Part shown: positions 47,786-64,000 of the stretch, in pieces | Numbering within the stretch: position 1 is the stretch's first letter | Layout: each line of letters starts with the position of its first letter | Origin: an uncultured Erysipelotrichaceae bacterium | GTDB taxonomy: Bacteria > Bacillota_I > Bacilli_A > RFN20 > CAG-826 | Assembly (NCBI GenBank): GCA_947166565.1 | Contig: CAMVEL010000005.1 | Coordinates: forward strand, 1 to 64,000 | Reading direction: 5' to 3' | Length of the DNA: 64,000 nucleotides | Translations under genes and position numbers: made by a program | The notes under the pieces: generated by a model | Told to the model about the DNA's origin: nothing | Seen by the model: only the letters and a program-made list of their open reading frames with translations | The model's database searches: none

Positions 47786-47841
47786 AGGAAGGTATAGCCC
47801 CAACTATATATTGAATACGTGAAAAGAGTTCCTGTCAAGAC

Positions 47842-47869
47842 TTGTCCTTTCTTCTATTTTTCATACAAT
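47842..47869 (+). promoter_or_regulatory. Promoter of hpf
   Basis: TTGTCC (47842-47847) and TACAAT (47864-47869) are 16 nt apart, about 35 bp before the hpf start, with an AGGAGG site between. Confidence 0.55.
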
Positions 47870-47903
47870 AATGACGTAAGCCCTATAGGAGGGGCAGAAA
47901 CAT

Positions 47904-48458
47904 ATGAAATATCAAATAATCGGAAAGAACATCGAGGTCACCGATGCTATTCGCGCAGACATTGAGCGAAAACTCGGGAAGATGGACAAGTATTTCGTCA
48001 TCGACGACGAAGTCCTTTGCCGCGCCGTCGTCAGGAGCTATAACGTCGGCGCCAAAGTCGAGCTCACCATCTTCACCAAATTGATGACCTTCCGCGCCGA
48101 GGTCAGGGATAACGACCTCTACGCCGCCGTCGATTTAGCCGTCGACAAACTCGAAGACCAAATGAGGAAACTCAAAACCCGTCTTAGCCGCCGTTCCGAG
48201 AAGAACATCAACCTCGGAAAGGCCCTCGTCATGGAACGCCTCGAGGAAGAGGAAGAAGAGGAGGAGAACGATGAAATCGTCCGCACCAAATCCATCTACC
48301 TCGATCCAATGGATATCGATGAAGCCATCACCCGTATGGAAGCGATCGGCCACGATTTCTTCCTCTATCTCGATAGGGAAGACGACCAAATCTCCGTCGT
48401 CTATCGCCGCGTCGATGGAGGCTATGGCATCATCCAGGCCGAGAACAAGCTTAAATAA
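47904..48458 (+). CDS. hpf: Long ribosome hibernation promoting factor
   Basis: This factor binds idle ribosomes and makes 100S dimers in stationary phase. The 184-residue protein has an N-terminal RaiA/YfiA domain (about 1-105; ITDAIR-like start, KLMTFRAEVRDNDLYAAVDLAVDKLEDQ) and a C-terminal dimerisation domain (about 122-180; YLDPMDIDEAITRMEAIGHDFFLY and VVYRRVDGGYGIIQ). The linker is highly acidic. The long form with two domains is typical of Bacillota. AGGAGG stands about 11 nt before the start. Confidence 0.95.
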   Translation: MKYQIIGKNIEVTDAIRADIERKLGKMDKYFVIDDEVLCRAVVRSYNVGAKVELTIFTKLMTFRAEVRDNDLYAAVDLAVDKLEDQMRKLKTRLSRRSEKNINLGKALVMERLEEEEEEEENDEIVRTKSIYLDPMDIDEAITRMEAIGHDFFLYLDREDDQISVVYRRVDGGYGIIQAENKLK

Positions 48459-48476
48459 GCTTATTCAACGATCCCT

Positions 48477-48508
48477 AGGGCAAGAAAAAACTTGCCCTTT
48501 TCTTTTTG
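48477..48508 (+). terminator. Terminator of hpf
   Basis: AGGGCAAG (48477-48484) and CTTGCCCT (48491-48498) form the stem, followed by TTTCTTTTT. Confidence 0.85.
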
Positions 48509-48523
48509 GCAAGCCTTCCGTCA

Positions 48524-48832
48524 TCAACTGTGTTTTATGATTTCCTTAATCTCAATTTTTTTGAAGATTTCCCTGAAGGTGAATCTTCCCTTCCCCTTGA
48601 TGTTGAATAGTTTTTCTTTGTCCTTGAATAAACCGTGGTAAAGGCTTTTCTCACTTCCGTCTTTGGTTAACCTCATCTCGATGCATTCAAAAGATTTTAT
48701 CCCGTTTATTTCAAGATAGACCCTTCTAAGGACGCATTCTCGATAATGGGGGTAGGAGGGAATGGCGAAACGAACCTCATCCAAAGTGCCTTCGTTTATT
48801 CCTTTTATGATTTCCTCGTAGGTATAATCCAT
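48524..48832 (-). CDS. Small conserved-looking protein of unknown function
   Basis: This 102-residue protein has no recognisable family. It is soluble and basic, with an alternating hydrophobic pattern (VRFAIPSYPHYRECVLRRVYLEI), two Cys residues and a Lys-rich C-terminus. It runs opposite to hpf and the next HAD gene. A GATAAT -10-like box lies 6 nt before the ATG and TTTACA 18 nt before that, a leaderless layout. That the promoter fits the frame supports a real gene; the lack of homology recall leaves it open. Confidence 0.6.
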   Translation of the reverse strand: MDYTYEEIIKGINEGTLDEVRFAIPSYPHYRECVLRRVYLEINGIKSFECIEMRLTKDGSEKSLYHGLFKDKEKLFNIKGKGRFTFREIFKKIEIKEIIKHS

Positions 48833-48838
48833 AAGGGA

Positions 48839-48868
48839 ATTATCCCTTTAGATATTGGTTGGTGTAAA
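48839..48868 (-). promoter_or_regulatory. Promoter of the 102-residue protein gene, leaderless type
   Basis: TTTACA (48863-48868) and GATAAT (48839-48844) on the minus strand are 18 nt apart; the ATG follows after 6 nt (TCCCTT). Confidence 0.45.
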
Positions 48869-48971
48869 GACTAAAGCAACCACCTTTTTGCAAGGTTATT
48901 CTAAAATATTTAGAACCTGCGTTTAAATTGCTACCACGTAATGGCAAAACCTAGTATTGTAATTGCGTTCT

Positions 48972-49835
48972 ATGGTTAAGGTAATCGCAACGGATTTAGA
49001 CGGTACCCTCTTCTACCCGAAGAGACGTATCTCGATGATCGCGAAGAAGAACAAAAAATTCCTCTATCGCTTCATTGATGACGGGGGCAAACTCGCCCTG
49101 GTTTCCTCGCGTTCCGATAACTTCCGTAAGAAGATTGCCAAACATTTCGATAGGCCATTCGACTTCATCGGGGCCGAAGGCTGCTTTATCACGATCGATG
49201 ATCAGATGAAGGAAGAAACCTTCTTCCCTCAGGATCTTCTCCGCGAATTGATCCCCTATATCCGCGAGAAATACGCGCCTTGGATCTTTATGCTTACCTC
49301 CAAGAACCGTCCCTTTGTCGTCGCTAGAAGCGGGGTCAAACGCATCGTCACGGCCATCTATTTCCTCTATATGTTCTTCCAAGGGGCCTATAAGGAAAAA
49401 GGCGTCAGAAGCGATTATGTCTTCTTCGACGAAATCAATAAGGGCGAAGTCTACAAACTTATGCTTTTCGTCGGCTTCACCAAAAAGCAGAAACTGATGT
49501 CCAAGAAGCTATGCGAGGAAATCAACGCCAAATACGATTCCATCGAGGCCCATTGGCTAGGAGAAGTTGCGGAAATCACCCCAAAAGGCTGCACAAAAGC
49601 CGAGGGGGTTGCAAAATACCTTGATTATCTTAAGATAAACCACGATAATGTTTTAGTTGTCGGCGATGGGGGCAATGACGTTCCGATGTTCGATAGATTC
49701 CACGAACATTCCTACGCCATGAGCCATGCTCACCTCTCGGTGAAGTCCCATGCCTCGGCAACGATCAAGCATTTCCACGACTTGGAAGATGAACTATACC
49801 CATCGGTGGATAGAAAATCATCGAAAAAGAATTGA
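48972..49835 (+). CDS. HAD-superfamily hydrolase, Cof/type IIB
   Basis: This 287-residue cytoplasmic phosphatase has motif I ATDLDGTLF near 6-14, motif II VSSRS near 41-45, the late Lys and motif IV VVGDGGNDVPMF near 230-241. A cap domain lies between (about 85-195). Cof-type proteins dephosphorylate sugar phosphates, FMN or pyridoxal phosphate. The ATG is chosen over a TTG three codons upstream. TGTAAT lies 8 nt before it and there is no Shine-Dalgarno sequence. The next gene follows after 15 bp with a good ribosome-binding site. Confidence 0.87.
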   Translation: MVKVIATDLDGTLFYPKRRISMIAKKNKKFLYRFIDDGGKLALVSSRSDNFRKKIAKHFDRPFDFIGAEGCFITIDDQMKEETFFPQDLLRELIPYIREKYAPWIFMLTSKNRPFVVARSGVKRIVTAIYFLYMFFQGAYKEKGVRSDYVFFDEINKGEVYKLMLFVGFTKKQKLMSKKLCEEINAKYDSIEAHWLGEVAEITPKGCTKAEGVAKYLDYLKINHDNVLVVGDGGNDVPMFDRFHEHSYAMSHAHLSVKSHASATIKHFHDLEDELYPSVDRKSSKKN

Positions 49836-49850
49836 ACAGGAGAAAATAAC

Positions 49851-50726
49851 ATGCCAGAAAATCAATTGAATCAGGCATCTGTCGTCGTTACCACGCTGCT
49901 CCATTATAACGTGACCATCCGCGACACCCTCGAGTATTGCCTCAATAAGTCGTCCTATGATGTCGAGCTCTTCAAGAACAAAAAGAGAGCCGTCCTCATC
50001 GAGGTCGACCAGAACACCCCGCTTAAGAACATCATCAACAACTCGACCGAGAACGAAGCGGGCGCCAAACTTGAAAAGCAGATCCGCGACTTCTATGAGG
50101 AAGTCTATGGCGATTCCAGCACCATCCTTTCCCTTGGCACCAATGCCGATGGCAAAGAGGAAGTCCGCGTCGACGCCAACCAGCATCTTGCCATCTATAA
50201 GTACGTCCTTCCAATCCATACCCAGATCTCTTCCATGATCACCGGTATCCTCAACGACGCCCACAGCAAGAACATCGATGTCGCCGAAGTCGAGAAGGTC
50301 TATCGCTCCGAAGAGAAGATGTTCGCCGCGGTTTCCTATCTCACCCTCGTCGGCGATCTCAACAAGCTTTTCGCCGATTACAACAAGGCCCGTCAGGAAG
50401 CCCAAGGTGCGATTACCCCAGCCTCCAACTTCATCCAGCAGGACCTCGAGACCGTCATCCGCAACATCAACACCGTCCGCGCGACCTCCCGCGTTACCTC
50501 CCTTGTCTTCAAGCAGATGGAAGATAAGATCAACGCCCTCATCGAGACGATGACCGGTCGCCGTGACCTCCCAGAAGGCAAGAACCACAACGACCTTATG
50601 CGCGAAACCGCGGAAACCGTCAACCTCTATGTCCGCGACGCCGAAGCCGAATTCCGTGCCTTCTATCCACCTCTAATCAACAAGCTCCTCGCCCAAGTCG
50701 GACAAAACGGCCAGGCGGCTGCCTAA
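49851..50726 (+). CDS. Unrecognised 291-residue soluble helical protein
   Basis: I do not recognise this family. The protein is soluble, rich in Asn, Glu and Ala, and predicted to be largely helical from about 90 onward, with a C-terminal Gln/Ala tail. An N-terminal part (about 1-85) includes VVVTTLLHYNVTIRDTLEYCL and a stretch of alternating strands (KKRAVLIEVDQNTPLKNII). AGGAG precedes the ATG. Codon use is very strongly biased (ATC, GTC, GCC, AAG), like pgk and tpiA, which suggests high expression. It is followed 25 bp later by a two-segment membrane protein; the two probably work together. Confidence 0.75.
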   Translation: MPENQLNQASVVVTTLLHYNVTIRDTLEYCLNKSSYDVELFKNKKRAVLIEVDQNTPLKNIINNSTENEAGAKLEKQIRDFYEEVYGDSSTILSLGTNADGKEEVRVDANQHLAIYKYVLPIHTQISSMITGILNDAHSKNIDVAEVEKVYRSEEKMFAAVSYLTLVGDLNKLFADYNKARQEAQGAITPASNFIQQDLETVIRNINTVRATSRVTSLVFKQMEDKINALIETMTGRRDLPEGKNHNDLMRETAETVNLYVRDAEAEFRAFYPPLINKLLAQVGQNGQAAA

Positions 50727-50751
50727 TTAAGGAAAGGACGTTAACCCCATC

Positions 50752-51111
50752 ATGGCCGAAACGAAAGCAAGGAAATTCAGCGGGAAGGAACTCGTGTGGT
50801 ATATCATCGCGGGTGTTTTCGCCCTCGCTGGTTTGGTTTTCATCGTCTTCGCTTTGATCGGCGATTACACCCCAGGCCTCGCTTCCGATAACTGGGTCGC
50901 GACCTCCGAATCCGCATGGCTTACCAATTGGTCGCCCCTAGGCTATCGTCAATGGGGATTGATCCTCATTGGTGTCGGAGTCCTAATCTCCGTCATCGCC
51001 CTTAACTTCTTCGCTAGAGAAGGAGATAGGGACGAGGAACGCGCCCTTCGCCGCGCTCAACGCCTCGCTCTTGAAAACGAAGCCGTTGACGCCGAAGTCG
51101 AGAGCAAATAA
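50752..51111 (+). CDS. Unrecognised 119-residue membrane protein
   Basis: This protein has two hydrophobic segments (about 13-37 and 64-87) joined by an outside loop rich in Trp and Ser, and a charged cytoplasmic C-terminus with Arg/Glu repeats (DRDEERALRRAQRLALENEA). The layout suggests a small anchor or scaffold. It is read with the preceding 291-residue gene and both use the high-expression codon set. An AAGGA site precedes the ATG. A strong terminator follows. Confidence 0.72.
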   Translation: MAETKARKFSGKELVWYIIAGVFALAGLVFIVFALIGDYTPGLASDNWVATSESAWLTNWSPLGYRQWGLILIGVGVLISVIALNFFAREGDRDEERALRRAQRLALENEAVDAEVESK

Positions 51112-51127
51112 CCATTCCGAAATAATC

Positions 51128-51158
51128 AAGGCTCACCGCGCGGTGAGCCTTTTCTTTA
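51128..51158. terminator. Bidirectional terminator
   Basis: AAGGCTCACC (51128-51137) and GGTGAGCCTT (51142-51151) form a perfect 10-bp stem with a 4-nt loop and T-rich end, between convergent genes. Confidence 0.88.
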
Positions 51159-52493
51159 TTTCTTACGATGTTCTTCCTTCCATTTGAGGATCGCTTCTAG
51201 CCGCGGTCCGTATTTAGCTTCCATGCCTTGCTTTGATGGACGGTAATAACGTTTATCCTTAAGAGAAGGAGGCAAACAGACCATCGGGGTTAGTTTCTCC
51301 TCGAAGTCATGGGCGTAAAGATAACCTTCGCCATAGCCAAGATCCTTCATGAGCTTGGTTGGGGCGTTACGGATATATAAAGGCACGGGTTCCGCGATTC
51401 CTTCAAGCGCGTCTTTGGCCGCTTCGTTATAAGCGACTTCCAGGGCGTTGCTTTTTGGGGCAAGCGACATATAGACGACGGCCTCAGTAAGGATGACGTT
51501 GCATTCTGGCATGCCGATGTTCTTGCAGGCTTCGAAAGCGGCGACTGCAAGGGGTAAGGCGTGGGTATCGGCCATACCGACATCTTCGGATGCGCAACGG
51601 ATGACGCGTCTAGCGATATATAGGGGGTCTTCCCCGGCTTCAAGCATCCTTGCAAGCCAATATGTCGCGGCATCGGGGTCGCTGTTCCTCATCGATTTAT
51701 GGAGGGCGGAGATGATGTCATATTTCTGATCGCCTCCCTTATCGTAAAGAAGCGACTTGCGCGCGGTTATCTCCTCAACGGAAGCGATGCTGATATGGGT
51801 TAAGCCTTCCGCATCGACTTCGCCATTCAAAACGGCCATCTCCAAGGTAGATAAGGCTTTTCTAGCATCCCCGTTAGCGAAAGAAGCGATCATCGGGATT
51901 GCGCCTTCCTCCGCCTCAATCTTTTGTTTGCCAAAGCCGTTCTCGGAGGTTAAGGCCCTATTGAGCAACACTTCTATATCCTTGCTTGAAAGAGCTTGGA
52001 GGACGAAGACTTTGCATCTTGAAAGAAGAGCGGCGTTAACCTCAAACGAGGGGTTTTCGGTCGTGGCCCCAATAAGGATGATCGAGCCTTTTTCGACATA
52101 AGGGAGGAAAGCGTCTTGCTGAGCTTTGTTGAATCGATGGATTTCATCGACGAAAAGAATCGTCCTTTCGCCTATTTTCCTTCCTTCCTCGCTTTGCTCC
52201 ATGACCTCCTTGATCTCCTTGATGCCAGAGGTGACCGCGGAGAAATTGATGAAGCGGGATTTGGTTTTCTCGGCGATGATTGAGGCAAGGGTCGTCTTCC
52301 CGACTCCGGGAGGACCCCAAAAGATCATCGAGGTGACCTTATCTTCCTCGATTAGTCTTCTAAGGACCTTACCTTCTCCTAAAAGATGGGTTTGGCCCAC
52401 GAATTCGTCTAAGCCCTTTGGACGGAGCCTAGCCGCAAGAGGAAGGGCTTCGCTAGCCTTTTCCTCGAATAGGTTCAACTGTTCGTTAATCAT
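51156..52493 (-). CDS. rarA: Replication-associated recombination ATPase RarA (MgsA)
   Basis: This AAA+ protein acts at stalled replication forks. The 445-residue protein has PLAARLRPKGLDEFVGQTHLLG near the N-terminus, Walker A FWGPPGVGKTTLA near 58-70, Walker B ILFVDEIHRFNKAQQDAFLP near 111-130, sensor 1 IGATTENPSF and the C-terminal tetramer domain with LGYGEGYLYAHDF. The length fits the family. It begins 6 bp after the PP2C/ATPase gene of the NRPS operon, with no terminator between, so it may be co-transcribed by read-through. Confidence 0.95.
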   Translation of the reverse strand: MINEQLNLFEEKASEALPLAARLRPKGLDEFVGQTHLLGEGKVLRRLIEEDKVTSMIFWGPPGVGKTTLASIIAEKTKSRFINFSAVTSGIKEIKEVMEQSEEGRKIGERTILFVDEIHRFNKAQQDAFLPYVEKGSIILIGATTENPSFEVNAALLSRCKVFVLQALSSKDIEVLLNRALTSENGFGKQKIEAEEGAIPMIASFANGDARKALSTLEMAVLNGEVDAEGLTHISIASVEEITARKSLLYDKGGDQKYDIISALHKSMRNSDPDAATYWLARMLEAGEDPLYIARRVIRCASEDVGMADTHALPLAVAAFEACKNIGMPECNVILTEAVVYMSLAPKSNALEVAYNEAAKDALEGIAEPVPLYIRNAPTKLMKDLGYGEGYLYAHDFEEKLTPMVCLPPSLKDKRYYRPSKQGMEAKYGPRLEAILKWKEEHRKK

Positions 52494-52499
52494 CGTCTT

Positions 52500-54566
52500 T
52501 TATTTATAGTCTTTCCTGAACGAAAGGATGTTACGCCTTGCAACGTAGGTGTGGGTGATTTCATCAAGCATCGACTGGGCCATCAAAATCCCAAGGCCAC
52601 CCGCTTCGTTTTCATCATACTCCGGTTTATCGGTAAGAGGATCAAATTGAATGCCGTGATCGACGAGGGTTCCCTTAACGGAAGAACCATCATCGCGAAG
52701 GACGAGCATCGCTGGCTTATCGCCGGATTCCGAATAATTGACGACATTGGAGCAAAGTTCATCCATGATAACCTGGATTTTGCTGATGAAGGCCATATCT
52801 TTGCCTTCGAGGAAGTCATCGATGAAGGGCTCGACTTTTGTTAGTCCTTCGGGAGTGGCTTCGAATATCAAAGTGCGTTCCCTGACGTAATCGAGCGAGA
52901 CCATGCAGGCATCATCGCTTTGTTCAGCGGTTTTGACGAAGTCCGCGACGGCTTCCCACATCGCGTGGAAGCTAAGCTCGCTAGGAAGGGAGGCGTTTTT
53001 GTTGAGGGCCTCGCGGATCCTTTCCTTGCCGAAGAGGTTGCCATCGATATCCATGGCTTCGGAGACCCCGTCTGTATAAAGGAAGAGGCGGTCGCCTGGG
53101 ACCAATTTTATCTTTTGATCAACGAATTCAAGGCCTTCGTCCATGCCAAGCATGAGGTTAGCTTCTTCATCGAGGGGTTCATACACCCCGTTATGGCCAA
53201 GGAAGACGGGTTCATGCCCGCAGTTGACGTAATGGAGCCATCCCGTCTTGACATTGAGGACCGCTAAGAAGGCGGTGACGAAGAAATTCTCCGCATTGTC
53301 TTCGCAAAGGATCTTGTTGGCTTCGTCGACATCAAGGTCTTTTAAGGCAAGACGCAAGAGCATATTGGCCTTAGCCATGAACAAAGCGGCCGGAACGCCC
53401 TTGCCGGAAACGTCGCCAACGAAGAATCCGACATGGTCTTCATCGATTTGGAAATAGTTATACAAATCACCACCGACTTCCTTCGCCGGCTTCATGGTGC
53501 CTCTTATTAGGAAATTCTCGCCAATCAATGGAGCGGAAGGGACCATTGAGGATTGGATGCGTTCGGCCAAGGCGAGGTCGGCGTTGATCTTCTCCTCGAA
53601 TATTGCCGATTGACGTACCTTTTCTGAATAATCGGCGATAGCTTCTTGGGTGAAATAAAGCGAATTGTTGAGGTCGCTTATCTCGTTCTCGGTCCTTCGT
53701 TTGCTTAAGCCAAAGAGCACCTCCGGCTTTCCTTCTTTTAAGGAGGCGACGTATTCGTTCCCCGTTTTGGAAAGGCGATGGAGGGGGTTGATGATAAGAA
53801 GATAAAGCAATAAGGCGATGATGCCGGTTAAGACCACTAAGAGGATGCTAGCGACGATCGCGAAGTTTTGGGTGAATCTTGACATAGCCGCGTAGACTTC
53901 GCCGACCGCGGTTTCCCTAACAAGCCAATAACGATGGGCCCCACCATAATCCTCGGGATGGACGGGGTGGGCCACTTCGCATAGATAAAGACCGCTTACG
54001 AGCAATTTTCCAAGGTGTCTATCATTCACCGTCTCTCCATAGAATCCTTCTTCGACGGCATAGGAGGGTTTTTCGAAGAAAGCCCCGATATAAAGGGAAA
54101 TCGCATCGACCTTATCGGCCTCGTCGATTGCATCTGAACTGCAAATCAAGACGAAACGGTTCGTGGCGGTATCTTCATAGAAAATGCCAACGAAGGTGGT
54201 AACATAACGTTGGAGTCGTTCTCTGCAAGCTACATAAAGCTGGGTGAAGGAGCTCGATTGGATTGTCGCGACGTATTCTTTTTCTTCCGCGCTTCCTGGA
54301 ACAAAGGGCTTTTCGGGCTTGTTGTCCTCGTATTTTTTGACGATTGGGGAACAGGCATACCCGATAATGTTTTCCTCTTCATCGGAAGTAAAAGACGACT
54401 GCAATGTATGAAGATCGGTGTTATCGTTGGTGACAGCAGCTTGGTATGAGGAGTCCTGGATAACGAAATAGGCTCCCGTATAAATTCCGCCCAATCCCAA
54501 AACTATTGCCAAGATTGTAGGCAAAAGAATCGACAAAGCCAGTGGGAAACGGCGTTTCTTTTTCAT
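52500..54566 (-). CDS. Membrane sensor with SpoIIE/RsbU PP2C phosphatase and RsbW-like ATPase domain
   Basis: This 688-residue protein has a membrane segment at about 8-36, an outside sensor part (about 37-233) and a second membrane segment (about 234-259). A HAMP-like linker and coiled stretch (about 260-340) follow, then a PP2C/SpoIIE phosphatase domain (about 345-560) with metal residues in EVGGDLYN (D367), GDVSGKG (D385), YTDGVSE (D499) and SDDACMV (D551/552). A C-terminal GHKL ATPase domain (about 575-688) has the N-box E603-N607 and GGLGI (656-660). The phosphatase should dephosphorylate the STAS protein; the kinase domain should phosphorylate it. Both activities in one chain is unusual. 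The gene overlaps the STAS gene by 4 bp. Confidence 0.9.
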   Translation of the reverse strand: MKKKRRFPLALSILLPTILAIVLGLGGIYTGAYFVIQDSSYQAAVTNDNTDLHTLQSSFTSDEEENIIGYACSPIVKKYEDNKPEKPFVPGSAEEKEYVATIQSSSFTQLYVACRERLQRYVTTFVGIFYEDTATNRFVLICSSDAIDEADKVDAISLYIGAFFEKPSYAVEEGFYGETVNDRHLGKLLVSGLYLCEVAHPVHPEDYGGAHRYWLVRETAVGEVYAAMSRFTQNFAIVASILLVVLTGIIALLLYLLIINPLHRLSKTGNEYVASLKEGKPEVLFGLSKRRTENEISDLNNSLYFTQEAIADYSEKVRQSAIFEEKINADLALAERIQSSMVPSAPLIGENFLIRGTMKPAKEVGGDLYNYFQIDEDHVGFFVGDVSGKGVPAALFMAKANMLLRLALKDLDVDEANKILCEDNAENFFVTAFLAVLNVKTGWLHYVNCGHEPVFLGHNGVYEPLDEEANLMLGMDEGLEFVDQKIKLVPGDRLFLYTDGVSEAMDIDGNLFGKERIREALNKNASLPSELSFHAMWEAVADFVKTAEQSDDACMVSLDYVRERTLIFEATPEGLTKVEPFIDDFLEGKDMAFISKIQVIMDELCSNVVNYSESGDKPAMLVLRDDGSSVKGTLVDHGIQFDPLTDKPEYDENEAGGLGILMAQSMLDEITHTYVARRNILSFRKDYK

Positions 54567-54859
54567 TGTTTTAAGGTAACCTGATTGTTAAAGCCGGTGA
54601 CGCGGAATATTTCGAGGATGACCTCGTTCGAGTTTTCGACGATGACGTGTTCTTTGCCGCCTAAATTCTTACGGCAGGTGAAGAGCAACCTTAGTCCAGA
54701 AGAAGAAAGGTATTCGAGCTTCGCGAAGTCAAATACGATATCCGTGTAGCCGTTTTCCTCATCTAGGGATTTCGCAAGAAGGGGTGAGGTGTTGGTATCA
54801 AGCCTTCCTTCAAGCGCGACATGAAGGACATTTCCTTCGAGTTTCTTTGAGATTTCCAT
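54563..54859 (-). CDS. STAS-domain anti-anti-sigma factor (RsbV/SpoIIAA-like)
   Basis: This 98-residue protein is one STAS domain. The phosphorylation site is expected at S54 in YLSSSGLRLL (50-59), aligned with DSSG of SpoIIAA, where Ser replaces the usual Asp at 52. The N-terminal ISKKLEGNVLHVALEGRLDT is typical. It should switch between an unphosphorylated form that binds an RsbW-type kinase and a phosphorylated form. The partners are probably the ATPase domains encoded on either side. It overlaps the phosphatase gene by 4 bp and follows the MATE-kinase gene by 12 bp, with AGGAG 9 nt from the start. Confidence 0.92.
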   Translation of the reverse strand: MEISKKLEGNVLHVALEGRLDTNTSPLLAKSLDEENGYTDIVFDFAKLEYLSSSGLRLLFTCRKNLGGKEHVIVENSNEVILEIFRVTGFNNQVTLKQ

Positions 54860-54871
54860 AATCTATTTCTC

Positions 54872-56683
54872 CTAGGCAATTTTGATTTCCATAATTGTGT
54901 TATTTGTATTGAGAACGCGCAAGTACTTGAAATCGCTTGCGATTTTGCGTACAAGCTCGATTCCGTGGAATTTGCTTTCCTCGTCCTCATCCGCCTTATA
55001 CGCGGTTGGGTCGAAGGTTAGCCCGTCGTCACGAACCCTCAACAATAGACCGACTTCGGTCCTTGTCAGGTTGACGTCGATATAACGGGCATGCGAATCC
55101 CTCTTATAACCGTATTCGATGATGTTGTCGATGATTTCCTCGGTCGCTAGAGCCAAGATGGCGGAAGCCTTCTCATCATGGGAGAGTTCGAGGGCTTTGG
55201 CTTGAATCGTCTCGATGATCGAGGATATCTCGTTGCTGTTAGCGGGAATCGACAAATCGACGACCCCCTCGTTTTTCTTGGTATAAGGTAAAAGCAATAA
55301 GCCTTTCCCGCTATAATGCTTGGTCTTTTTGCCAACGATGACCCAGACGATCGTCGCAATGGCGCCGACCCCTTCCATGATGATGACCCCGTAGGAGAAG
55401 CCCATTACGCCCATTGCCATCATTAGGAAATAGACGGATATCGGCCCTGCCAATCCTACGCGTACCGCATTGCCTACCAAAACTGGGGCATTGATCATCA
55501 GCGAAGGATAATAATAGGAGAAGAAGCGGTTCAATGAATAAAGCAGGAAGGATGTCGAGTAGATGCGCATGACCAATAACGGATCCAAATCGGCTTTCGA
55601 CGAAGCTAGAAGCTCGCTGTTCACGTTATCTAGGCTGACACCAAATATATATAGATAAATATTTGGGAAAGCGATGGATACGACCATCAGGACAACCGTT
55701 ACCCCCATGGCGATAAGGAAGACCCTTCTTGTCACCGCACGCACTCCAAAATAGTCTTTCTCCCCGAACAACGAGGAAACGACCGAAGGCATTACCTGGA
55801 AAATGCCGATTATGAAGAGATCGATGACGAAGGAGATGTTGCTTAGCATCGCAAACACGGGCATCTCGCCAGTCGTCAAATAGGAAGTGGCCGCTAGATT
55901 CAAAACAAGGCAATAGACCACGGACAAGGCGATCAATAACCCTGATGAACTTCCCGCCCTAAGGATGTCTTTGGCAAAGGCAAAAGACCCTTTGAATGGG
56001 GTTTTGAGATTGATGGCCCTCGTCTTGGATTTAAGATAGGGGAAGAAGACGACCATCCCCGCAATTAGGCCGATTCCTAAACTTCCGGCGACCCCATACA
56101 TCACATAATCGGGAGGAAGGGTCAAGCAGAAAAGTATTTCGACGCCGATATGGACGACGTTGCCAATGACAAAGAACAATGCCCCAAGGTTTGGGCTATT
56201 GTCCGAAGGAAGGAAATAGGCGAGGACTAGGGCAAGGGCAATGATGGGGGATTGGAAGCAATAGACTTTGACGTATTGGGAAATCATCGGGGCGAGATCT
56301 TGGAAATTGCCCGCAAACCAATTGGAGATGATATCGCCAAGAAACAAACCTAATGGGACGAAGATGAGACTGACGAAAAAGGCGAGGAACATCGATAGTT
56401 TGAAAGCCTTTGAGGCTTCCGAAACAAGTCGTTTTCCTAAGAATCCGGCTCCAACGATAGCAACGCCGGAAGCTATGGTCATGCCAGGGAGTTGGACGAG
56501 ATAAACGATTGGTAAGGCCAAAGAAGAGGCACTAAGAGCATCTCCCCCAAGGAAGTTACCGATGACGATCGCATCCGCCAAGGAACCGAATTGCATGGCC
56601 AAAACCATCAATACCGTGGGGATGAGGTATTGGTAGAACTTCTTACGGAGAATGTTGTCGTTACGCGAATAGGAGATAGCCAT
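54872..56683 (-). CDS. MATE-family exporter fused to an RsbW-like ATPase domain
   Basis: This 603-residue fusion has a MATE/MOP flippase part with twelve hydrophobic segments (about 1-460). Typical features are the MQFGSLADAIVIGNFLG start and repeated GxG-rich helices. A cytoplasmic GHKL serine-kinase-type domain (about 475-603) follows, with N-box E516-N520 (EEIIDN), the DDGLTFDP nucleotide motif (552-559) and a G2 region FHGIELVRK (572-580) that lacks one of the usual glycines. The gene starts 8 bp after the NRPS stop with GAGGTG ahead of the ATG. It likely exports the NRPS product and signals through its kinase domain to the STAS protein. A regulator kinase fused to a transporter is very unusual. 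Confidence 0.88.
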   Translation of the reverse strand: MAISYSRNDNILRKKFYQYLIPTVLMVLAMQFGSLADAIVIGNFLGGDALSASSLALPIVYLVQLPGMTIASGVAIVGAGFLGKRLVSEASKAFKLSMFLAFFVSLIFVPLGLFLGDIISNWFAGNFQDLAPMISQYVKVYCFQSPIIALALVLAYFLPSDNSPNLGALFFVIGNVVHIGVEILFCLTLPPDYVMYGVAGSLGIGLIAGMVVFFPYLKSKTRAINLKTPFKGSFAFAKDILRAGSSSGLLIALSVVYCLVLNLAATSYLTTGEMPVFAMLSNISFVIDLFIIGIFQVMPSVVSSLFGEKDYFGVRAVTRRVFLIAMGVTVVLMVVSIAFPNIYLYIFGVSLDNVNSELLASSKADLDPLLVMRIYSTSFLLYSLNRFFSYYYPSLMINAPVLVGNAVRVGLAGPISVYFLMMAMGVMGFSYGVIIMEGVGAIATIVWVIVGKKTKHYSGKGLLLLPYTKKNEGVVDLSIPANSNEISSIIETIQAKALELSHDEKASAILALATEEIIDNIIEYGYKRDSHARYIDVNLTRTEVGLLLRVRDDGLTFDPTAYKADEDEESKFHGIELVRKIASDFKYLRVLNTNNTIMEIKIA

Positions 56684-56691
56684 ATTTCACC

Positions 56692-59600
56692 TCATTCGAA
56701 GAAGCCAAGCGTGGAGAGCGAGGCAATGGAACGATCGAGATATTTCTCGTCGGTAATCGGCCATTTATAGCCAAGGCGATAAAGGGCTTTAATGGTGAAG
56801 GAGTTATCGGAAAGGATATATTCCCTAGCGACGGATTCGGAGGAGTTATAGGAAATAAGACAGGAGACATCCATCTGTTTTTCCTCATCGCTCATGTATT
56901 CGTTTAACTTTGCCATGAATGTTTCGTCATCGACCATGGCAATCGGATAACCAAAGTCGTTCATCGCGGCGATGACGTCGCCAAGTTCGATTTCATGGGA
57001 GTTCGCGCTATGGAAGATGGTGAAGTCCTTCTTGGTCTTCGCAAGGAGGAGGATGGTCTTGGCGACCTCATCGATTGGCGAGAAGTCGATTGTGGAATCG
57101 GCCGCGGAAACCGGGAAGACCCCAAGTTTCTTGTAGGCTCTAATCGTCGCCATGAAGTTGTTGGTTCCGGAATTGACCTGGAATTCGCCATCCCTCGCAC
57201 GGCCCATGAGGTTGCCGACGCGGACGACTTTGGCGTCGAGTCCACGGTCATTGACCGCCTCAATCAAGGCTTCCTCGGCCTTGATCTTGGAATTGATGTA
57301 TTTGTTGGAAACGTCTTGCCCGAAGAAGATTTCACTCTCGTGGATACGTTTTTCCTTCGGGAATTTGTGTCCGACGTTCTCCCCAGCGACGGAAAGCGTC
57401 GAAACCTGCACCAAACGGGCTTTATGTTCCAAAGCCACCTCGATGAGGTTCTTGACCCCGCCGAAATTGACTTTCTCGATCGCGTCGGAGTTGGAGAAAT
57501 GCTTAACGACCGCGGCGCAGTTGACGATGAGTTCGAACTTCACGTCTTTTAAGACGTCGAGGAGGTTTTCGTTGGTGACGTCGGCCTCGAGTATTTGCAC
57601 GCGCTCACCCATTTCCTCGATGAAAGGATTATCGAAGTAGTATTCAAGCAACCCGTGTAGCCGTTCTTTGCCACTGATTGTCTTAGAGCCACGGACCAAG
57701 GCGAGGATCTTGGCTTTGCTATTCAGAAGCAATTCATGGAGGATATGGATTCCAAGGAAGCCGGTCGCCCCGGTTAGGAGGATGGCCTTGAAATCCGCTA
57801 GGCCCTCGGTGACCTCGTCGACTTTTTCGATGACGTTATTCTCAAGTCCTTGTTTGATTGGGGCGAGGTCTTCTTTCTTGGCCTCCTCTTTATGGCCTTG
57901 CGAAAGGGCCAAAGCCGCCAAATCGATGACGGTTGGGTTATCGAAGACGTCGGAATAGGAGATATTAAGGCCTTTGCCCATGGCAAGCATCGTGACTTTG
58001 GAGGCGCTTAAGGATGTGCCGCCGAGATCGAAGAAGTCGTCGTCTATCGACAATTCGTCGACGCCGAGGACGTGCTTGAAGATGTCATAAATCGTCTGCT
58101 GGGTCTCATTGCGTGGCAAACGTATACCTTTTTTGCTTTCCTTGGCGTTCATGACAGGATCTGGCAATGCCTTCTTGTTGACCTTCCCGTTATTGGTCAT
58201 CGGGATGGATTCAAGCCTCATGAAGACCTTTGGAATCATGTATGGGGTAAGGGTCTTCCCCAGATGTTCCTTCAAGGAAGCAACGGGGATTTCCTCTTTC
58301 GCTAGATAATAGCCAACGAGGAACTGACCTTCCTCTTTGGTCTCCTTGACGACGACGACGGAACGGGAAATGCCGGGATAGGAGCCCATGGCGTTTTCGA
58401 TTTCATCGAGTTCGACGCGAAGACCGCGTAATTTGACTTGGTTATCCTTGCGGCCGAAGAATTCGATGCGTCCATCGTAATTGATGCGGGCAAGGTCGCC
58501 TGAACGATAGGAGTAGACGCCATGGAAGTCGATGAATTTCTCTTTGGTGAGGTCGTCTCTATGGACATAGCCCCTAGCGACGCCTTCGCCTCCGATGAGG
58601 AGCTCGCCAATCGCCCCAAACGGCAAACGGCGGAGATTTCCGTCGATGATATAGGTCTTGACGTTATTATCTGGATAACCAATGGTGATGCGATCGCTGG
58701 TGACGCGGTCCATCGTGCAGGAAACGGTGGCCTCGGTTGGGCCGTAGCCGTTTTGAATGAAGCACTTCATACCGCGGTCGCGCATCTTGGCGATCATTGA
58801 GGCCGGAAGAGCCTCCGCGCCCAAATCGATGATGTTAAGGTTGCGGAAAGCGACCATGACGTCTTCGATATCCAAGACGTTATTGACGTAAGATGGAGTG
58901 GTCGTGATGATATCGACCTTATTCTCGATCATGCGCTTTGCGAGCATGACGGGGTTAAGGATTTCGTCTTCGGAGGCAATCATGACGGTCATGCCATTAG
59001 CTAATGGGACGAATTCTTCCTGGATGGAAAGATCGAAGCTTAGGGATGCCAAGGAAGCCGCGACATGGCAATAGTTGATATATTCGTCAACGATGAAGTT
59101 ATGTGGGGTGTTATACACGAAATTGGAAAGGCTATGATGCTCGATCATGACGCCTTTTGGCTTGCCGGTCGAACCGGAGGTGTAGATGCAATAGGCAAGC
59201 GAATTCTTCGGGATTTCCACGCGGATTGGGTCTTTTGGTTCGTTGGCCAAGATATCTTCCAATAGGAGGAAGTTGGTATTTCCGAACGTGGCCTTTTTCG
59301 CTTCATAGAGGGCTTTGGTGGTCAAAACCGCTTTCGCTTCGGAATCCTCGGCGATATAGAGGATGCGTTCATCCGGGTAAGCGGGATCGACGGGGACGAA
59401 ACAAGCGCCAGCCCGCATAACGCCTTCCCTAGCGACATAGCAATTGGCAATGCGCGGGACCATGACGACGACCTTATCGTCAGGCTTGAGGCCAAGTTTC
59501 AATAAGGCGGAGGCCACTTGGTTCATGCGCTCATCCATTTGGGCGTAGGTGAGGCTTTCGTCGATGCCGACGACCGCGAGTTTATCGGGATTGGCCTTGA

Positions 59601-62600
59601 CCTGTTCCTCGAACATATCCAAATAGGAGCCTTTTGGTAGAGGATCTTCGGTTTGGTTATGGACGTCCATTTCCTTTGCGACTTTTTCATCACAAAGAAC
59701 GATTTCGTTTAGGGCCTTCTTGGAAATGAATCCCTTGATGACCATCTCAAAGAGGGAGGTGAAATAACGCATCGTCTCTTCGCGATAGAGGTTACTTGGG
59801 TATTCGTAATGGAGACGGTAGCAATCCTTTCCTTCTAAGCAATCGACGGAGAAGGCGGCTTTGACTTCATCGCCGTTGAGGTGGATTAGTTCGGCCTTCT
59901 CGCCGCCGATGGAATCCGGGAGGAAACCATCCCCTTGGTAAGCGAACATGACGTCTGCTTTGACATCGAAGTCACGGCTGATGTCGGCAAAGGAATAAAG
60001 GGTGCGTTCCTCGCTCTTTTGGAGTTGTTCGGAAAGTTTTTTGATGAAGTCCAAGGTATTCTCGTTGGCCTCGATTTTCGCGTAAGCCGGCAAGGTCTTG
60101 ACCATCATCGTGACGCTTCTAGCGGTGAAGGAGCTATCGCGCCCTGAATAAATGGAGGTGAACAAGGCGTCCTCGTTCCCGTTCCATTTGGCTAAGGCAT
60201 AGGCGAAAACGGCATTGAAGAATCCGTTTTGGTTGAGGCCATTATCCTTTAGGAACTTCGCGATGTCACCCTTAGAAACGGATAGATCATAGTCTTGCTC
60301 CAAAGGTTTTTCTTCTTTGGGCAATTCGTATTCTTTGCGCGGTAAAGACGGCGAATCGACGCCATCGAGGAAGGAAGCGTAATGGGCTTTTTGCTCATTA
60401 AGCGCATCGGGGGTTGCCTCTTTTTCTTCCTTCAAGGCGATTTGGAAGCCGTTGCGGCGTTCCCCTTCGATTTCTTCGCCTTTGTATAGTTTATCGATAT
60501 CTTCCATCAAAACCGCTAAGGAAGAGCCGTCGCTAGCGATATGGTGGGTATCAAGGAAGAGGTAGTTTTCCTTTCCTTCATAGATCCTCGCCTGATAGAA
60601 AGGACCCTTTATCAAGTCATAGGCGGTTAAGGCAAACGGCATCTTTGGATCGCCTTTGATGCGCTCGACCCTAACTTCGTCGTTAAGGGCGGGGACGACG
60701 CGGGGATCGCCGGATTCGCCGACGATGAGATGGCCCTTCAAATAAGGATGGGCATCGATCGCCTTCTTGATGGATTCCTCAAGACGGTTCAAATCGGTCT
60801 TCTTGGAAAGGCGATAAAGAAGCGGGATGTTATAGAGGGTTGAGCCAGGATGGGAGAAGCATTCGACGTAAATGCCCTGCTGGGTTTTCGTCAATGGGTA
60901 ATCCGGAAGCTCTTCGTATTCTTCTTCCTCGTTGCCTCCGCTTAAGGAAGCAAGCGCGCGGATCGTTGAGTTTTGACGGAGCAAGGCCGTAGTCAAATCA
61001 ACGCCCATAGTCTGCGAGAAGATGGTGATGAATTTGATGGAGGAGATCGAAGTCAAACCCGATTCGAACAAATCGGCGGTGACGGAAATGTCGTTATAGC
61101 CAAGGATCTTCCTGGCGATTTCGAGGATTTTCGTTTCCGCTTCGTTAGCAGGAGGAACGACCTCCGCTTCCTTTCTTTCTGGAAGTGGAAGGGCGCGTTT
61201 ATTGACCTTGCTGTTTTGGTTTAGAGGAATCTTCTCGATCTGCATCATGACCTCTGGGACCATGTAAGGAGGTTTGCGTTCCCCGATGAAGGATTTGATA
61301 TCATCCAAATCAAGGGTCTTGTCGGAAACGACGTAACCGGCGATGAAGGAACCTCCGCTTGGGGCGGGATAGGCGTTGACGGTCGCGTCTTTCACGCCTG
61401 GATAATCGCGAATTACGCGTTCGACTTCGCTAAGCTCGATACGGAAGCCACGGATCTTGACCTGCCCGTCCTTACGGCCAATGAAATCGCAGGTCCCGTC
61501 TTTTAGGAATCGCACCACGTCACCCGTGAAATACATTCTGGAGTAGTAGCCATCGTCCTCGAACGGATTCTTGAGGAAGGCCTTCGCGTTTTCCTCCGGT
61601 CTATTCTTATAGCCTCTAGCAACCTGAGGTCCGGAGCAATATAAATAGCCAGGAACCCCATATGGGAGAGGCCTCATCTTCTTATCGAGGACATAGAGAT
61701 GGCAAATCGCATGTCCTTTGCCAATGGGAACACGGTAATAGAGGCGATCGACCTCATGACCGGTGATGGTGATCGTGCATTCGGTTGGGCCATAGCCATT
61801 CACGAGGATAAAGCCCTTAGGAGGCTTCACTGGAACGAGTTTCTCACCGCCAACCGTTAGATATACAAGGCTATTGTTCTCATAGTCTTCCGCAAATTGG
61901 CGCCCGACCTGGGTGGTCATCAAACCATGGGTTAAGTGGTTTTCCTCGATGTATTCGTTGAGGCGCTTCAAATCAAGACGCATGGTCTCGTCGATGATAT
62001 AAAGCGGCAAGCCATTGCATAAAGCCCCATAAAGGTCATACATGTTCGCGTCGAAACCATAAGAAGCGTAAGCGAAGAAGCGGGATTCCGGAGTGATCTT
62101 CAAGGTCTTCCTCTGCCATTGCACATAGGCGGAGATGTTATGGTGTTCAAGTTGGACGCCCTTTGGCTTTCCGGTGGAGCCGGAGGTATAGAGCATGATG
62201 TAGAGATCGTCTTTTCCTGGACGGGGTTGCTTTAAACCTAACCGTGGCAAATTCGGAATCTCATCGATGAAGAGGATTGGCCCTTTGAAGGAAGGAACGC
62301 GTTCCTCGAGCCCCCTTTGGCAAATGAGGATCTGGGCCTCCGCGTCTTCCATCATGAAGGCAAGACGTTCGTCTGGATAAGCGGGATCAAGGGGCTGATA
62401 GGCCGCGCCTGATTTCAAAACGCCCAAAGAGGCGATGGCCATGTATTCGTTTCTGCCGATTAGGATCGAGACGATTTGGTTTGGTTTAACGCCTTTATCG
62501 ATGATGTAATCTGAAATGCGGTCGGACAATTCCCCTAATTGCCCGTAGCTGATACGCCTATCGCCGGAGATGACCGCGTCTTTTTCCGGGTGAGCGGCGA

Positions 62601-63918
62601 TATGGTCGCGGATATCATCGACAAAGTCACGGTCGAAATCGTAACCCGTGAGGTCTTTTTCGTTATATGACCTTAGTAAAGCGGCATCCTCTTCATCGCA
62701 GGGGGAGATATCCTCGATATTCTCCTTTTCCATTAGGCCGAGGGCGAAATGTTCCATCCTTCTTATGAAGGAACGCAAGGAATCCTCTTCATAGAGGTCC
62801 GCGCGGTATTCGACATCCGCGAAATAGCCTCCGTTATAACGGAAGAGCTCGATGGCCATCTTCTCTTTGCCGTCTTTTGTCTGAACGACCTCGACCGGGG
62901 TGTCTTTTCCGTTAAGGGTCGTATGGTAGAAATAATCGCCTTGATAAGCGAAGAGGTTCTCCGCGGATACCCCGAAGTCAGCGACGAGATCGCTATAGGA
63001 GTAGTTGCTATGGGCGATCAAATCCTCCTGGGACTGATTGACTTTCCTAAGGAGGTCACCGGTTTTTCCTTCGCCTAGATTGTTGACGTAGAAAGGCAAT
63101 GTTTTTACATACATGCCATAGCTCTTTTTGACTTTATCACTCCTGCCATTATTGACGGTAAGGAACAAAACCTCCTCGGAGAAAGTCGCCTGGGCAAGGG
63201 TCAAGGAGTAGGCGGCGAGGAAGAAGCTCGAACGGCGAATGCCGTGTTTCTTCAAGGCCTTCGCGACCTCTTTGTCTTTTAATAAGGGCAATTCGACCCT
63301 GAATCTTCCATAGGAAACATTCTCTTCTTGCTTATCCAAGGTCAAGGAAGAATCGACGTCCATCCCTCCATAAGCGTTTTCAAAGAACGTTTTATCTTCT
63401 AAGAATGAAGGAGCTTCCCTTCCTTCTTTCTTGTTTAACGCATCATCGATGCCATCGTTTTCCTCTTTGGAGACCTCTTCCTTACCCTCATAGAAGGAGG
63501 CGAATTCATCAAGGAACATCTTTAAGGAGAATCCATCCATCAAGATGTGATGGAAATCCGCGAAGAGATAGTCGTCTTCCTTGGTTTCAAGGAAGAGGAA
63601 GCGATATAGGGGAGAATCCATCAAGGAGAAATATTGGACTAGTTCCTCTTTGTTCACCTTATCGGTTTTTTTGATTTCCATCTTCGGGGCAAGAGGAACG
63701 ATATGCTTATATGTTTCTCCGTCTTGTCCTTGAACCAATTGCATGTTGAGATAAGGGTGGGAAAGGAAGACTTTCTCAATCGCCTTTTGGGCTTTTTCCT
63801 TATCTCCATGCTCGCCTAAAGGAATTAGCAATGGGAGGTTGTAGGCTAGAGTCGGTTCCATGCAGGAAAGGAAAATGCCGAGTTCTTCTCGAGAAATGGG
63901 GGCCATGCGTTCAGACAT
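56692..63918 (-). CDS. Two-module NRPS, C-A-T-C-A-T-R, reductive release
   Basis: This 2408-residue synthetase builds a dipeptide. Domains: C1 (about 1-420, HHILMDG at 123-129); A1 (about 430-910, TSGSTGKPKG at 578-587, catalytic Lys K904); T1 (about 925-990, ESGLTS with Ser S957); C2 (about 1005-1410, HHIASDG 1125-1131); A2 (about 1430-1915, TSGSTGKPKG 1580-1589, Lys K1912); T2 (about 1935-2005, FDLGGTS with S1969); thioester reductase (about 2045-2408, GATGFLG 2050-2056, Tyr/Lys Y2207 and K2211). All catalytic residues are present. The N-terminal C domain suggests an N-acylated product, and the R domain suggests an aldehyde or alcohol. AAGGAG stands 8 nt before the start. No phosphopantetheinyl transferase is nearby. 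Confidence 0.95.
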   Translation of the reverse strand: MSERMAPISREELGIFLSCMEPTLAYNLPLLIPLGEHGDKEKAQKAIEKVFLSHPYLNMQLVQGQDGETYKHIVPLAPKMEIKKTDKVNKEELVQYFSLMDSPLYRFLFLETKEDDYLFADFHHILMDGFSLKMFLDEFASFYEGKEEVSKEENDGIDDALNKKEGREAPSFLEDKTFFENAYGGMDVDSSLTLDKQEENVSYGRFRVELPLLKDKEVAKALKKHGIRRSSFFLAAYSLTLAQATFSEEVLFLTVNNGRSDKVKKSYGMYVKTLPFYVNNLGEGKTGDLLRKVNQSQEDLIAHSNYSYSDLVADFGVSAENLFAYQGDYFYHTTLNGKDTPVEVVQTKDGKEKMAIELFRYNGGYFADVEYRADLYEEDSLRSFIRRMEHFALGLMEKENIEDISPCDEEDAALLRSYNEKDLTGYDFDRDFVDDIRDHIAAHPEKDAVISGDRRISYGQLGELSDRISDYIIDKGVKPNQIVSILIGRNEYMAIASLGVLKSGAAYQPLDPAYPDERLAFMMEDAEAQILICQRGLEERVPSFKGPILFIDEIPNLPRLGLKQPRPGKDDLYIMLYTSGSTGKPKGVQLEHHNISAYVQWQRKTLKITPESRFFAYASYGFDANMYDLYGALCNGLPLYIIDETMRLDLKRLNEYIEENHLTHGLMTTQVGRQFAEDYENNSLVYLTVGGEKLVPVKPPKGFILVNGYGPTECTITITGHEVDRLYYRVPIGKGHAICHLYVLDKKMRPLPYGVPGYLYCSGPQVARGYKNRPEENAKAFLKNPFEDDGYYSRMYFTGDVVRFLKDGTCDFIGRKDGQVKIRGFRIELSEVERVIRDYPGVKDATVNAYPAPSGGSFIAGYVVSDKTLDLDDIKSFIGERKPPYMVPEVMMQIEKIPLNQNSKVNKRALPLPERKEAEVVPPANEAETKILEIARKILGYNDISVTADLFESGLTSISSIKFITIFSQTMGVDLTTALLRQNSTIRALASLSGGNEEEEYEELPDYPLTKTQQGIYVECFSHPGSTLYNIPLLYRLSKKTDLNRLEESIKKAIDAHPYLKGHLIVGESGDPRVVPALNDEVRVERIKGDPKMPFALTAYDLIKGPFYQARIYEGKENYLFLDTHHIASDGSSLAVLMEDIDKLYKGEEIEGERRNGFQIALKEEKEATPDALNEQKAHYASFLDGVDSPSLPRKEYELPKEEKPLEQDYDLSVSKGDIAKFLKDNGLNQNGFFNAVFAYALAKWNGNEDALFTSIYSGRDSSFTARSVTMMVKTLPAYAKIEANENTLDFIKKLSEQLQKSEERTLYSFADISRDFDVKADVMFAYQGDGFLPDSIGGEKAELIHLNGDEVKAAFSVDCLEGKDCYRLHYEYPSNLYREETMRYFTSLFEMVIKGFISKKALNEIVLCDEKVAKEMDVHNQTEDPLPKGSYLDMFEEQVKANPDKLAVVGIDESLTYAQMDERMNQVASALLKLGLKPDDKVVVMVPRIANCYVAREGVMRAGACFVPVDPAYPDERILYIAEDSEAKAVLTTKALYEAKKATFGNTNFLLLEDILANEPKDPIRVEIPKNSLAYCIYTSGSTGKPKGVMIEHHSLSNFVYNTPHNFIVDEYINYCHVAASLASLSFDLSIQEEFVPLANGMTVMIASEDEILNPVMLAKRMIENKVDIITTTPSYVNNVLDIEDVMVAFRNLNIIDLGAEALPASMIAKMRDRGMKCFIQNGYGPTEATVSCTMDRVTSDRITIGYPDNNVKTYIIDGNLRRLPFGAIGELLIGGEGVARGYVHRDDLTKEKFIDFHGVYSYRSGDLARINYDGRIEFFGRKDNQVKLRGLRVELDEIENAMGSYPGISRSVVVVKETKEEGQFLVGYYLAKEEIPVASLKEHLGKTLTPYMIPKVFMRLESIPMTNNGKVNKKALPDPVMNAKESKKGIRLPRNETQQTIYDIFKHVLGVDELSIDDDFFDLGGTSLSASKVTMLAMGKGLNISYSDVFDNPTVIDLAALALSQGHKEEAKKEDLAPIKQGLENNVIEKVDEVTEGLADFKAILLTGATGFLGIHILHELLLNSKAKILALVRGSKTISGKERLHGLLEYYFDNPFIEEMGERVQILEADVTNENLLDVLKDVKFELIVNCAAVVKHFSNSDAIEKVNFGGVKNLIEVALEHKARLVQVSTLSVAGENVGHKFPKEKRIHESEIFFGQDVSNKYINSKIKAEEALIEAVNDRGLDAKVVRVGNLMGRARDGEFQVNSGTNNFMATIRAYKKLGVFPVSAADSTIDFSPIDEVAKTILLLAKTKKDFTIFHSANSHEIELGDVIAAMNDFGYPIAMVDDETFMAKLNEYMSDEEKQMDVSCLISYNSSESVAREYILSDNSFTIKALYRLGYKWPITDEKYLDRSIASLSTLGFFE

Positions 63919-63937
63919 ATGGGTGCTCCTTAGGAAA

Positions 63938-63978
63938 ATAGTTTAGATAACTATACAACTTTTTTATGTGCGCGTGAA
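63938..63978 (-). promoter_or_regulatory. Predicted NRPS operon promoter with palindromic operator
   Basis: On the minus strand TTCACG (63973-63978) and TATAGT (63950-63955) are 17 nt apart. A palindrome ATAGTT-TAGAT-AACTAT (63938-63954) covers the -10 box and the start of transcription, and GTGCG/CGCAC (63968-63983) covers the -35 box. Both could be regulator sites. Confidence 0.5.
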
Positions 63979-64000
63979 CGCACCATGCGCGAAAGGAGAA

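Follow-up and report, generated by a model that had tools for sequence, protein, structure and literature searches.

A MATE exporter with an RsbW-like ATPase domain in a nonribosomal peptide synthetase operon: a candidate sigma-free partner switch

We analysed a stretch of 64,000 nucleotides (the window) from an uncultured Erysipelotrichaceae bacterium (contig CAMVEL010000005.1, positions 1 to 64,000). It carries an operon of four minus-strand genes encoding a nonribosomal peptide synthetase (NRPS), a MATE exporter, a STAS protein and a membrane PP2C phosphatase; the coordinates of these genes and their domains are all on the minus strand. The host is probably a rumen bacterium. The NRPS (2408 amino acids (aa), 56692..63918; Pfam and motifs) has the layout C-A-T-C-A-T-R, that is, condensation (C), adenylation (A) and carrier (T) domains with a reductive release domain (R) at the end. 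It is followed by the exporter with a C-terminal HATPase_c_2 domain (603 aa, 54872..56683; Pfam, AlphaFold model and fold matches), the single-domain STAS protein (98 aa, 54563..54859; Pfam and alignment) and the phosphatase (688 aa, 52500..54566), in which a transmembrane segment, an outer domain, a second transmembrane segment and a long helix precede PP2C and HATPase_c_2. The gene order and the spacing (8 bp, 12 bp and a 4-bp overlap) agree with an earlier, sequence-only reading of this DNA. Matches above the Pfam cut-offs were observed in all four proteins: Condensation, AMP-binding and PP-binding (two stretches each) and NAD_binding_4 of the thioester-reductase type in the NRPS, MatE and HATPase_c_2 in the exporter, STAS, and SpoIIE and HATPase_c_2 in the phosphatase.

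Related loci were collected by scanning one genome per species with patterns derived from the N-terminal MATE part, which yielded 48 named loci. The C-terminal fusion was therefore not selected for. The patterns came from NRPS-linked copies, and strongly divergent fusions would escape them. Many of the 48 loci come from the same genomes as the unnamed family loci considered below, and thus are not a second sample. By record title, eleven belong to Clostridia, Clostridiales, Ruminococcus or Christensenella, one to Bacillota, and the rest to Erysipelotrichaceae, Bacilli or Bacillales; where the title states a source, it is the ruminant gut.

The exporter matches the MatE family (PF01554, 69.3 bits against a cut-off of 24.9) and is below the cut-off of the NCBIfam matE subfamily (TIGR00797, 77.5 bits against 147.4). 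The best PDB match of its AlphaFold model (pLDDT 85.7, pTM 0.85) is the MATE protein 4mlb (TMt 0.79), and ClbM (4z3n) is at rank 49. The exporter has its MATE fold in common with ClbM, of the colibactin pathway, and with other MATE exporters, which are not known to have a kinase domain. Here residues 481-596 (54896..55243; Pfam and alignment) form an HATPase_c_2 domain similar to RsbW and SpoIIAB. It was found in 46 of 46 named MATE copies without a nearby contig end. In the alignment of the named loci, E515 and E516 are present in all 48 rows, whereas N520, D552-D553-G554 and G574 are present in the 47 readable ones, the remaining row being gapped at a contig end. The N-box and the G1 Asp of partner-switch ATPases are thus retained in every readable row, at identities down to 33%.

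In the operon-type STAS proteins Arg19, Asp21, Ser25, Ser52, Ser53 and Gly55 are conserved in 53 of 53 sequences. Ser53 (codon 54701..54703) aligns with the serine of SpoIIAA and RsbV, presumably the phosphorylated residue, and the protein has the single-domain form that goes with this serine in partner switches.

In the phosphatase, two hydrophobic stretches (residues 7-25 and 241-259, by hydropathy) flank a predicted extracytoplasmic domain (residues ~32-220, 53907..54473; model and hydropathy), a putative sensor. Among the best 50 of 408 PDB matches of the phosphatase model, all carry names of PP2C proteins or of related phosphatase/RssB proteins, and none offers a fold for this domain. A viral 'Cache' fold was considered and set aside, the match being weak (E 0.018). 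The catalytic domain (residues 375-559, 52890..53444; Pfam SpoIIE and alignment; PF07228, 147.8 bits) has the metal-binding aspartates of PP2C: D385, D499 and D551 are invariant in 32 rows, and D367 and D552 are present in at least 90%. Its best NCBIfam match is SiaA (NF038263), far below the equivalog cut-off (51.4 bits against 700), and the same holds for SpoIIE (TIGR02865, 21.8 bits against 490.8). The best PDB match of the AlphaFold model (pLDDT 81.4, pTM 0.53) is the RsbU-RsbW pair of Rv1364c (3ke6), with the SiaA PP2C domain at rank 5. The G1 Asp of the C-terminal HATPase_c_2 domain (residues 568-685, 52512..52865; Pfam), D636 in the window, is kept in just 17 of the 50 readable rows, including the window's genus. 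Since the ATPase domain of the phosphatase mostly lacks this residue, the alignment points to the pump domain as the general STAS kinase. The domain on the phosphatase may be a docking site for STAS or a second kinase.

The NRPS starts with a condensation domain (residues 1-440, 62599..63918; Pfam and motifs) and an adenylation domain with the code DAYMLVGIT (residues 441-920, 61159..62598; Pfam), both approximate, with the boundary set by hand. Pfam further places the first carrier domain (PP-binding, residues 930-991, 60946..61131), the second condensation domain (residues 1006-1400, 59719..60903), the second adenylation domain with the code DLQTILGVS (residues 1436-1784, 58567..59613) and the thioester reductase domain (NAD_binding_4, residues 2048-2289, 57052..57777). 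The condensation motifs are HHILMDG (123) and HHIASDG (1125), and the reductase motif is GATGFLG (2050). By Pfam and motifs, the protein has the architecture that we take to be that of reductive-release dipeptide NRPSs of the gut peptide-aldehyde type.

Linkage of the four genes is the rule. In 47 of the 48 named loci the gene directly 5' of the MATE fusion encodes an NRPS. Where there is DNA past the MATE gene, STAS is next in 40 of 46 loci and PP2C follows STAS in 37 of 46, including L127, where PP2C is split over two frames; in L094 and L134, left out of the 46, the contig ends inside the MATE gene. The sequence-only reading had proposed one linked system, to be sought by a genome search, and would have given it up if every relative had its MATE-kinase and STAS genes at a distance from NRPS genes. 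Such a separation was looked for, and the opposite was found: the combination recurs in the 48 named loci and in the family genomes. Full-length matches to the fusion profile were found in 3 of 392 genomes of the phylum, namely the window's own and two of its family; the further matches listed at E 1e-20 are partial (frames of 401-488 aa). A gene resembling phosphopantetheinyl transferases lies directly before the NRPS gene in 21 of 48 loci, one copy having been checked with Pfam.

The exceptions to linkage retain the parts. Six loci lack STAS and PP2C behind the MATE gene (L089, L091, L095, L116, L118, L120), and in their genomes an operon-type STAS gene followed by PP2C is found elsewhere, the pair of the L089 genome (L250) being divergent. 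Three further loci (L108, L110, L130) have STAS and no PP2C, and again a full STAS-PP2C pair is found elsewhere in the genome. So the parts are kept in nine of nine split cases, which favours the four genes as one unit. The orphan fusion L095 might have been considered unrelated to NRPS. This was rejected, as on another contig of the same genome STAS and PP2C stand behind an NRPS gene with the MATE gene missing (L248). In the L091 locus, genes for a stand-alone HATPase_c_2 protein and for a membrane PP2C lie before the NRPS gene (494-2616), in addition to the STAS-PP2C pair elsewhere in its genome.

Co-occurrence was analysed in 196 family genomes at E 1e-30, with Fisher tests uncorrected for shared ancestry or genome incompleteness. 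The MATE fusion was found in 30 genomes, the NRPS carrier-reductase region in 36, and a full-length phosphatase in 35, full length being defined as at least 700 bits, a line set after the scores had been seen. The NRPS and the phosphatase share 33 genomes (p 1.4e-31), the fusion and the phosphatase 29 (p 1e-27), and the NRPS and the fusion 29. An NRPS without a full-length phosphatase was observed in G067, G184 and G115. Conversely, G059, with the pair on a 4.5-kb contig, and G195, where a contig-cut NRPS end lies beside the fusion, have the phosphatase and no NRPS match. No fusion was detected in seven NRPS genomes (G006, G067, G082, G126, G168, G184, G191), the NRPS of G067 reaching a contig end. 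Divergent STAS-PP2C pairs scoring below 700 bits were found in the NRPS carrier G115 (L250, 437 bits) and in G174 (L315, 462 bits), which has no NRPS match. A STAS-PP2C pair general to the family was considered and not borne out: at E 1e-60 there is a PP2C match in 78 of 196 genomes, and only 35 reach 700 bits, of which 33 are NRPS carriers.

The second-adenylation codes of 36 NRPSs longer than 2200 aa fall into three groups: DAQFLMG(I/V)T (26), DLQT(I/L)LGV(S/T) (7) and DAMFLVGIF (3). As in the window, the residue positions behind these nine-letter codes follow a provisional numbering. DAMFLVGIF was observed in all three compared NRPSs from genomes with no detected fusion (L257, L258, L259) and in none of the 33 from genomes with one. 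Since this group is exactly that of the genomes with no detected fusion, the exporter and the product class seem to be coupled. This is a lead, as two of the three are close relatives and the L259 genome is 58% complete.

We consider it somewhat probable that the four genes work together as a partner switch without a sigma factor, controlling export of the NRPS product. The NRPS would make a two-residue product, released by the R domain as an aldehyde, and the MATE part would export it. By analogy with RsbW and SpoIIAB, the ATPase domain of the pump would phosphorylate Ser53 of STAS and dock unphosphorylated STAS. The membrane phosphatase would sense a signal outside the cell and dephosphorylate STAS. 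Free STAS would then dock on the pump kinase and alter the activity of the pump, the exporter taking the place of the sigma factor of the classical system, and the pump kinase would phosphorylate STAS again. We lean towards docking that opens the pump rather than closes it. Sequence and comparative genomics establish the parts, their recurrent linkage and co-occurrence, and the kept motifs; the phosphorylation of STAS, its docking and the gating of the pump are inferred.

Several observations weigh against this model. The first glycine of GxG, a usual motif of ATPase domains, is missing from the pump kinase. The main difficulty is that six of the 35 PP2C genomes have no detected fusion (G006, G059, G082, G126, G168 and G191; completeness 96, 94, 96, 87, 71 and 58%), so STAS must have another partner there; the HATPase_c_2 matches in these six genomes are only PP2C-fused. 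One might expect the ATPase of the phosphatase to keep its G1 Asp where the pump kinase is absent. This was refuted, as the four aligned copies from genomes with no detected fusion (L254, L257, L258, L259) also lack it. In one of the 48 named loci (L092, 14162-16213), PP2C is followed by a subtilase gene, behind which lies an ECF-like sigma gene. Finally, evolutionary distances correlated at 0.86-0.91 over 37 loci fit co-inheritance without contact. We judged such a mirror-tree correlation uninformative as a sign of contact. The linkage, too, would fit co-inheritance, and by itself it does not prove interaction.

One possibility is that synthesis rather than export is controlled: STAS would bind a helper or the NRPS itself, with the pump kinase reporting the state of export, so that the product is made only if it can be exported. 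The retention of STAS-PP2C in the six genomes with no detected fusion fits a STAS acting also on synthesis. Indeed, STAS-PP2C accompanies NRPS genes in four of them, in the order NRPS-STAS-PP2C in G082 and as a pair near an opposite-strand NRPS in G006, G126 and G191, and PP2C is present in 33 of 36 NRPS genomes. However, the Pfam scan found in the NRPS no domain like a known STAS partner, and the kinase motifs are kept in all readable copies of the pump. We regard control of synthesis as unlikely, albeit the strongest of the alternatives.

The switch could also have a classical output, in which RpoD itself or an unlinked sigma factor passes its control on to RNA polymerase. All three types of partner-switch proteins are present. 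Besides a full RpoD, the genome of the window encodes an ECF-like protein that has regions 2 and 4. A further, sigma-like protein of 226 aa is encoded close behind rpoD (L047, 1012-1692); its region 2 exceeds the cut-off and its region 4 falls just short. The ECF-like gene of L092 points the same way. However, of the 30 fusion-carrying genomes, 28 have a single region-3 match (PF04539), in frames of 407-541 aa apart from one of 187 aa. G175 (70% complete) has none, and G093 (4% contamination) has two, both on the same contig. The single match of the window's genome is RpoD. A partner-switch sigma factor of the SigB/SigF type with region 3 was thus not found in these metagenome-assembled genomes, which are incomplete, and sigma factors without region 3 exist. 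In agreement with the sequence-only reading, no sigma factor was found at the locus: none was seen by eye among the open reading frames (ORFs) of 46000-64000, five queries made up of sigma factors and neighbours gave no similar ORF in the window at E 1e-4, and at the same threshold the sigma queries found no resembling ORF in the 47 named loci other than L092. The six STAS-PP2C genomes with no detected fusion have no separate RsbW-type protein. A similar gene set is reported from an archaeon (see below), and according to a 2009 paper, no bona fide sigma factors were known in Archaea. Simpler control of transcription would be provided by a histidine kinase (PF06580) and a response regulator with a helix-turn-helix domain, encoded on the same strand just upstream of the NRPS gene (contig positions 64285-66172, past the end of the window; L050 1286-3173). 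We thus consider the classical output improbable. The sequence-only reading had offered two targets, peptide synthesis or export on the one hand and an unlinked sigma factor on the other. The former fits the data better, whereas the latter is weakened, because 28 of 30 carriers have one region-3 match and because of the archaeal gene set. Taken together, the relatives suggest a switch acting on export or synthesis and not on gene expression.

It is very improbable that the ATPase domain of the pump is a mere structural or targeting tail, with export constitutive and STAS-PP2C unrelated: the incomplete GxG and the limits of linkage as proof agree with this, but the N-box and DDG are kept in all readable rows and the STAS-PP2C pair in all nine split cases.

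The SpoIIAB/SpoIIAA/SpoIIE and RsbW/RsbV/RsbU systems share with the operon HATPase_c_2, a STAS protein with the conserved serine, and PP2C. Unlike in these systems, the ATPase domains here are parts of the exporter and of the phosphatase, and no sigma partner was found. The mycobacterial Rv1364c (3ke6) has the same PP2C-HATPase tandem as the phosphatase; we know of no exporter associated with it. Partner switches with outputs other than sigma factors are described for SypA (PMC10120452), BtrU/V/W (PMC7498569) and SiaABC (PMC7647112). In SiaABCD of Pseudomonas aeruginosa, the PP2C phosphatase SiaA and the kinase SiaB act on SiaC, and the system includes a diguanylate cyclase; SiaA is the best NCBIfam match of our phosphatase, far below the cut-off, and the abstract mentions no exporter (PMC7647112). 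In Bordetella, BtrU, BtrV and BtrW are needed for secretion, with BtrU and BtrW assumed to be the governors; however, the secretion is type III and the kinase is a separate protein (PMC7498569). In Vibrio fischeri SypA/SypE, one protein holds both kinase and phosphatase, but the system concerns polysaccharide biofilm and has a response-regulator input (PMC10120452).

The closest published gene set is that of the rumen methanogen Methanobrevibacter ruminantium M1, an archaeon. Around mru0068 it has a two-module NRPS, MatE, an anti-sigma factor antagonist and two serine phosphatases, for which Leahy and co-authors (2010) suggested roles in sensing, in export and in regulating the expression of the NRPS (PMC2812497). 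Thus the statement of the sequence-only reading that it knew of no described system with this combination does not hold. The likeness is one of gene content as described in the text, which gives no word on a kinase domain in MatE, and the gene order differs from that of the operon. The release domain of this NRPS is a 'thioesterase' in the main text and a 'thioester reductase' in the legend of Figure S8 (PMC2812497). Lauric acid is reported to raise mru_0069 and mru_0352 (MatE) and mru_0351 (NRPS), and another methanogen species is stated to have an NRPS. The gene combination was therefore known. What appears to be new is that the exporter contains a kinase domain, that this domain is conserved, and that the split loci keep the parts. 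No report of these three was found in a search that covered few subscription journals.

A wider claim, which we put forward tentatively and which may well fail, is that the efflux pump itself is the effector of a partner switch, with an anti-sigma-type kinase turned into one of its domains, that phosphorylation of STAS gates secretion of a nonribosomal product, and that exporter-linked switches form a sigma-free class across bacteria and archaea. Its members would be the NRPS-MATE operons, a cassette of the same genomes that combines a radical-SAM protein and NHLM-like ABC exporters (described below), and the methanogen NRPS-MatE cluster. Such switches would explain anti-sigma proteins in organisms without sigma factors. 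A puzzle of this kind, the targets of anti-sigma and anti-anti-sigma proteins of methanogens with no known sigma factor, is already in print (PMC2686161). The operon offers a purifiable case of an RsbW-type kinase domain covalently joined to a transporter and thereby makes this puzzle testable. It also provides a way from genomes to the NRPS products of uncultured gut bacteria, which could be found and perhaps activated by this route.

The second exporter-linked switch cassette consists of genes for a response regulator, a radical SAM-SPASM protein, an HlyD-like stub, two NHLM-like ABC exporters (just under the NCBIfam cut-offs), STAS, STAS-APH and PP2C-HATPase. It was observed in whole or in part in L130 (12191-21749), L110 (8765-18317), L124 (14358-21749), L123 (5526-12927) and L318 (1097-10688), and adjoins the NRPS operon in L110, L123, L124 and L130. 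Pieces were found in L114 and L246 and in the window's own genome (L053, L054, L055). In L054 (8058-9209; genome G000, contig C11), STAS is fused to an APH-type phosphotransferase and followed by a PP2C-HATPase gene, and in L126 a similar STAS-APH-like fusion lies directly 5' of the NRPS gene. On contig C20 of G000, a membrane PP2C gene lies directly 5' of the LrgA and LrgB genes (L052, 5838-8513).

Downstream of the operon, 6 bp past the phosphatase gene and on the same strand, is a gene for an MgsA-type AAA ATPase (51156-52493), and L087 has a 445-aa gene in the matching place. Y_phosphatase3 proteins are encoded in the window at 47012-47785 and, in another genus, directly behind STAS (L070, 676-1392).

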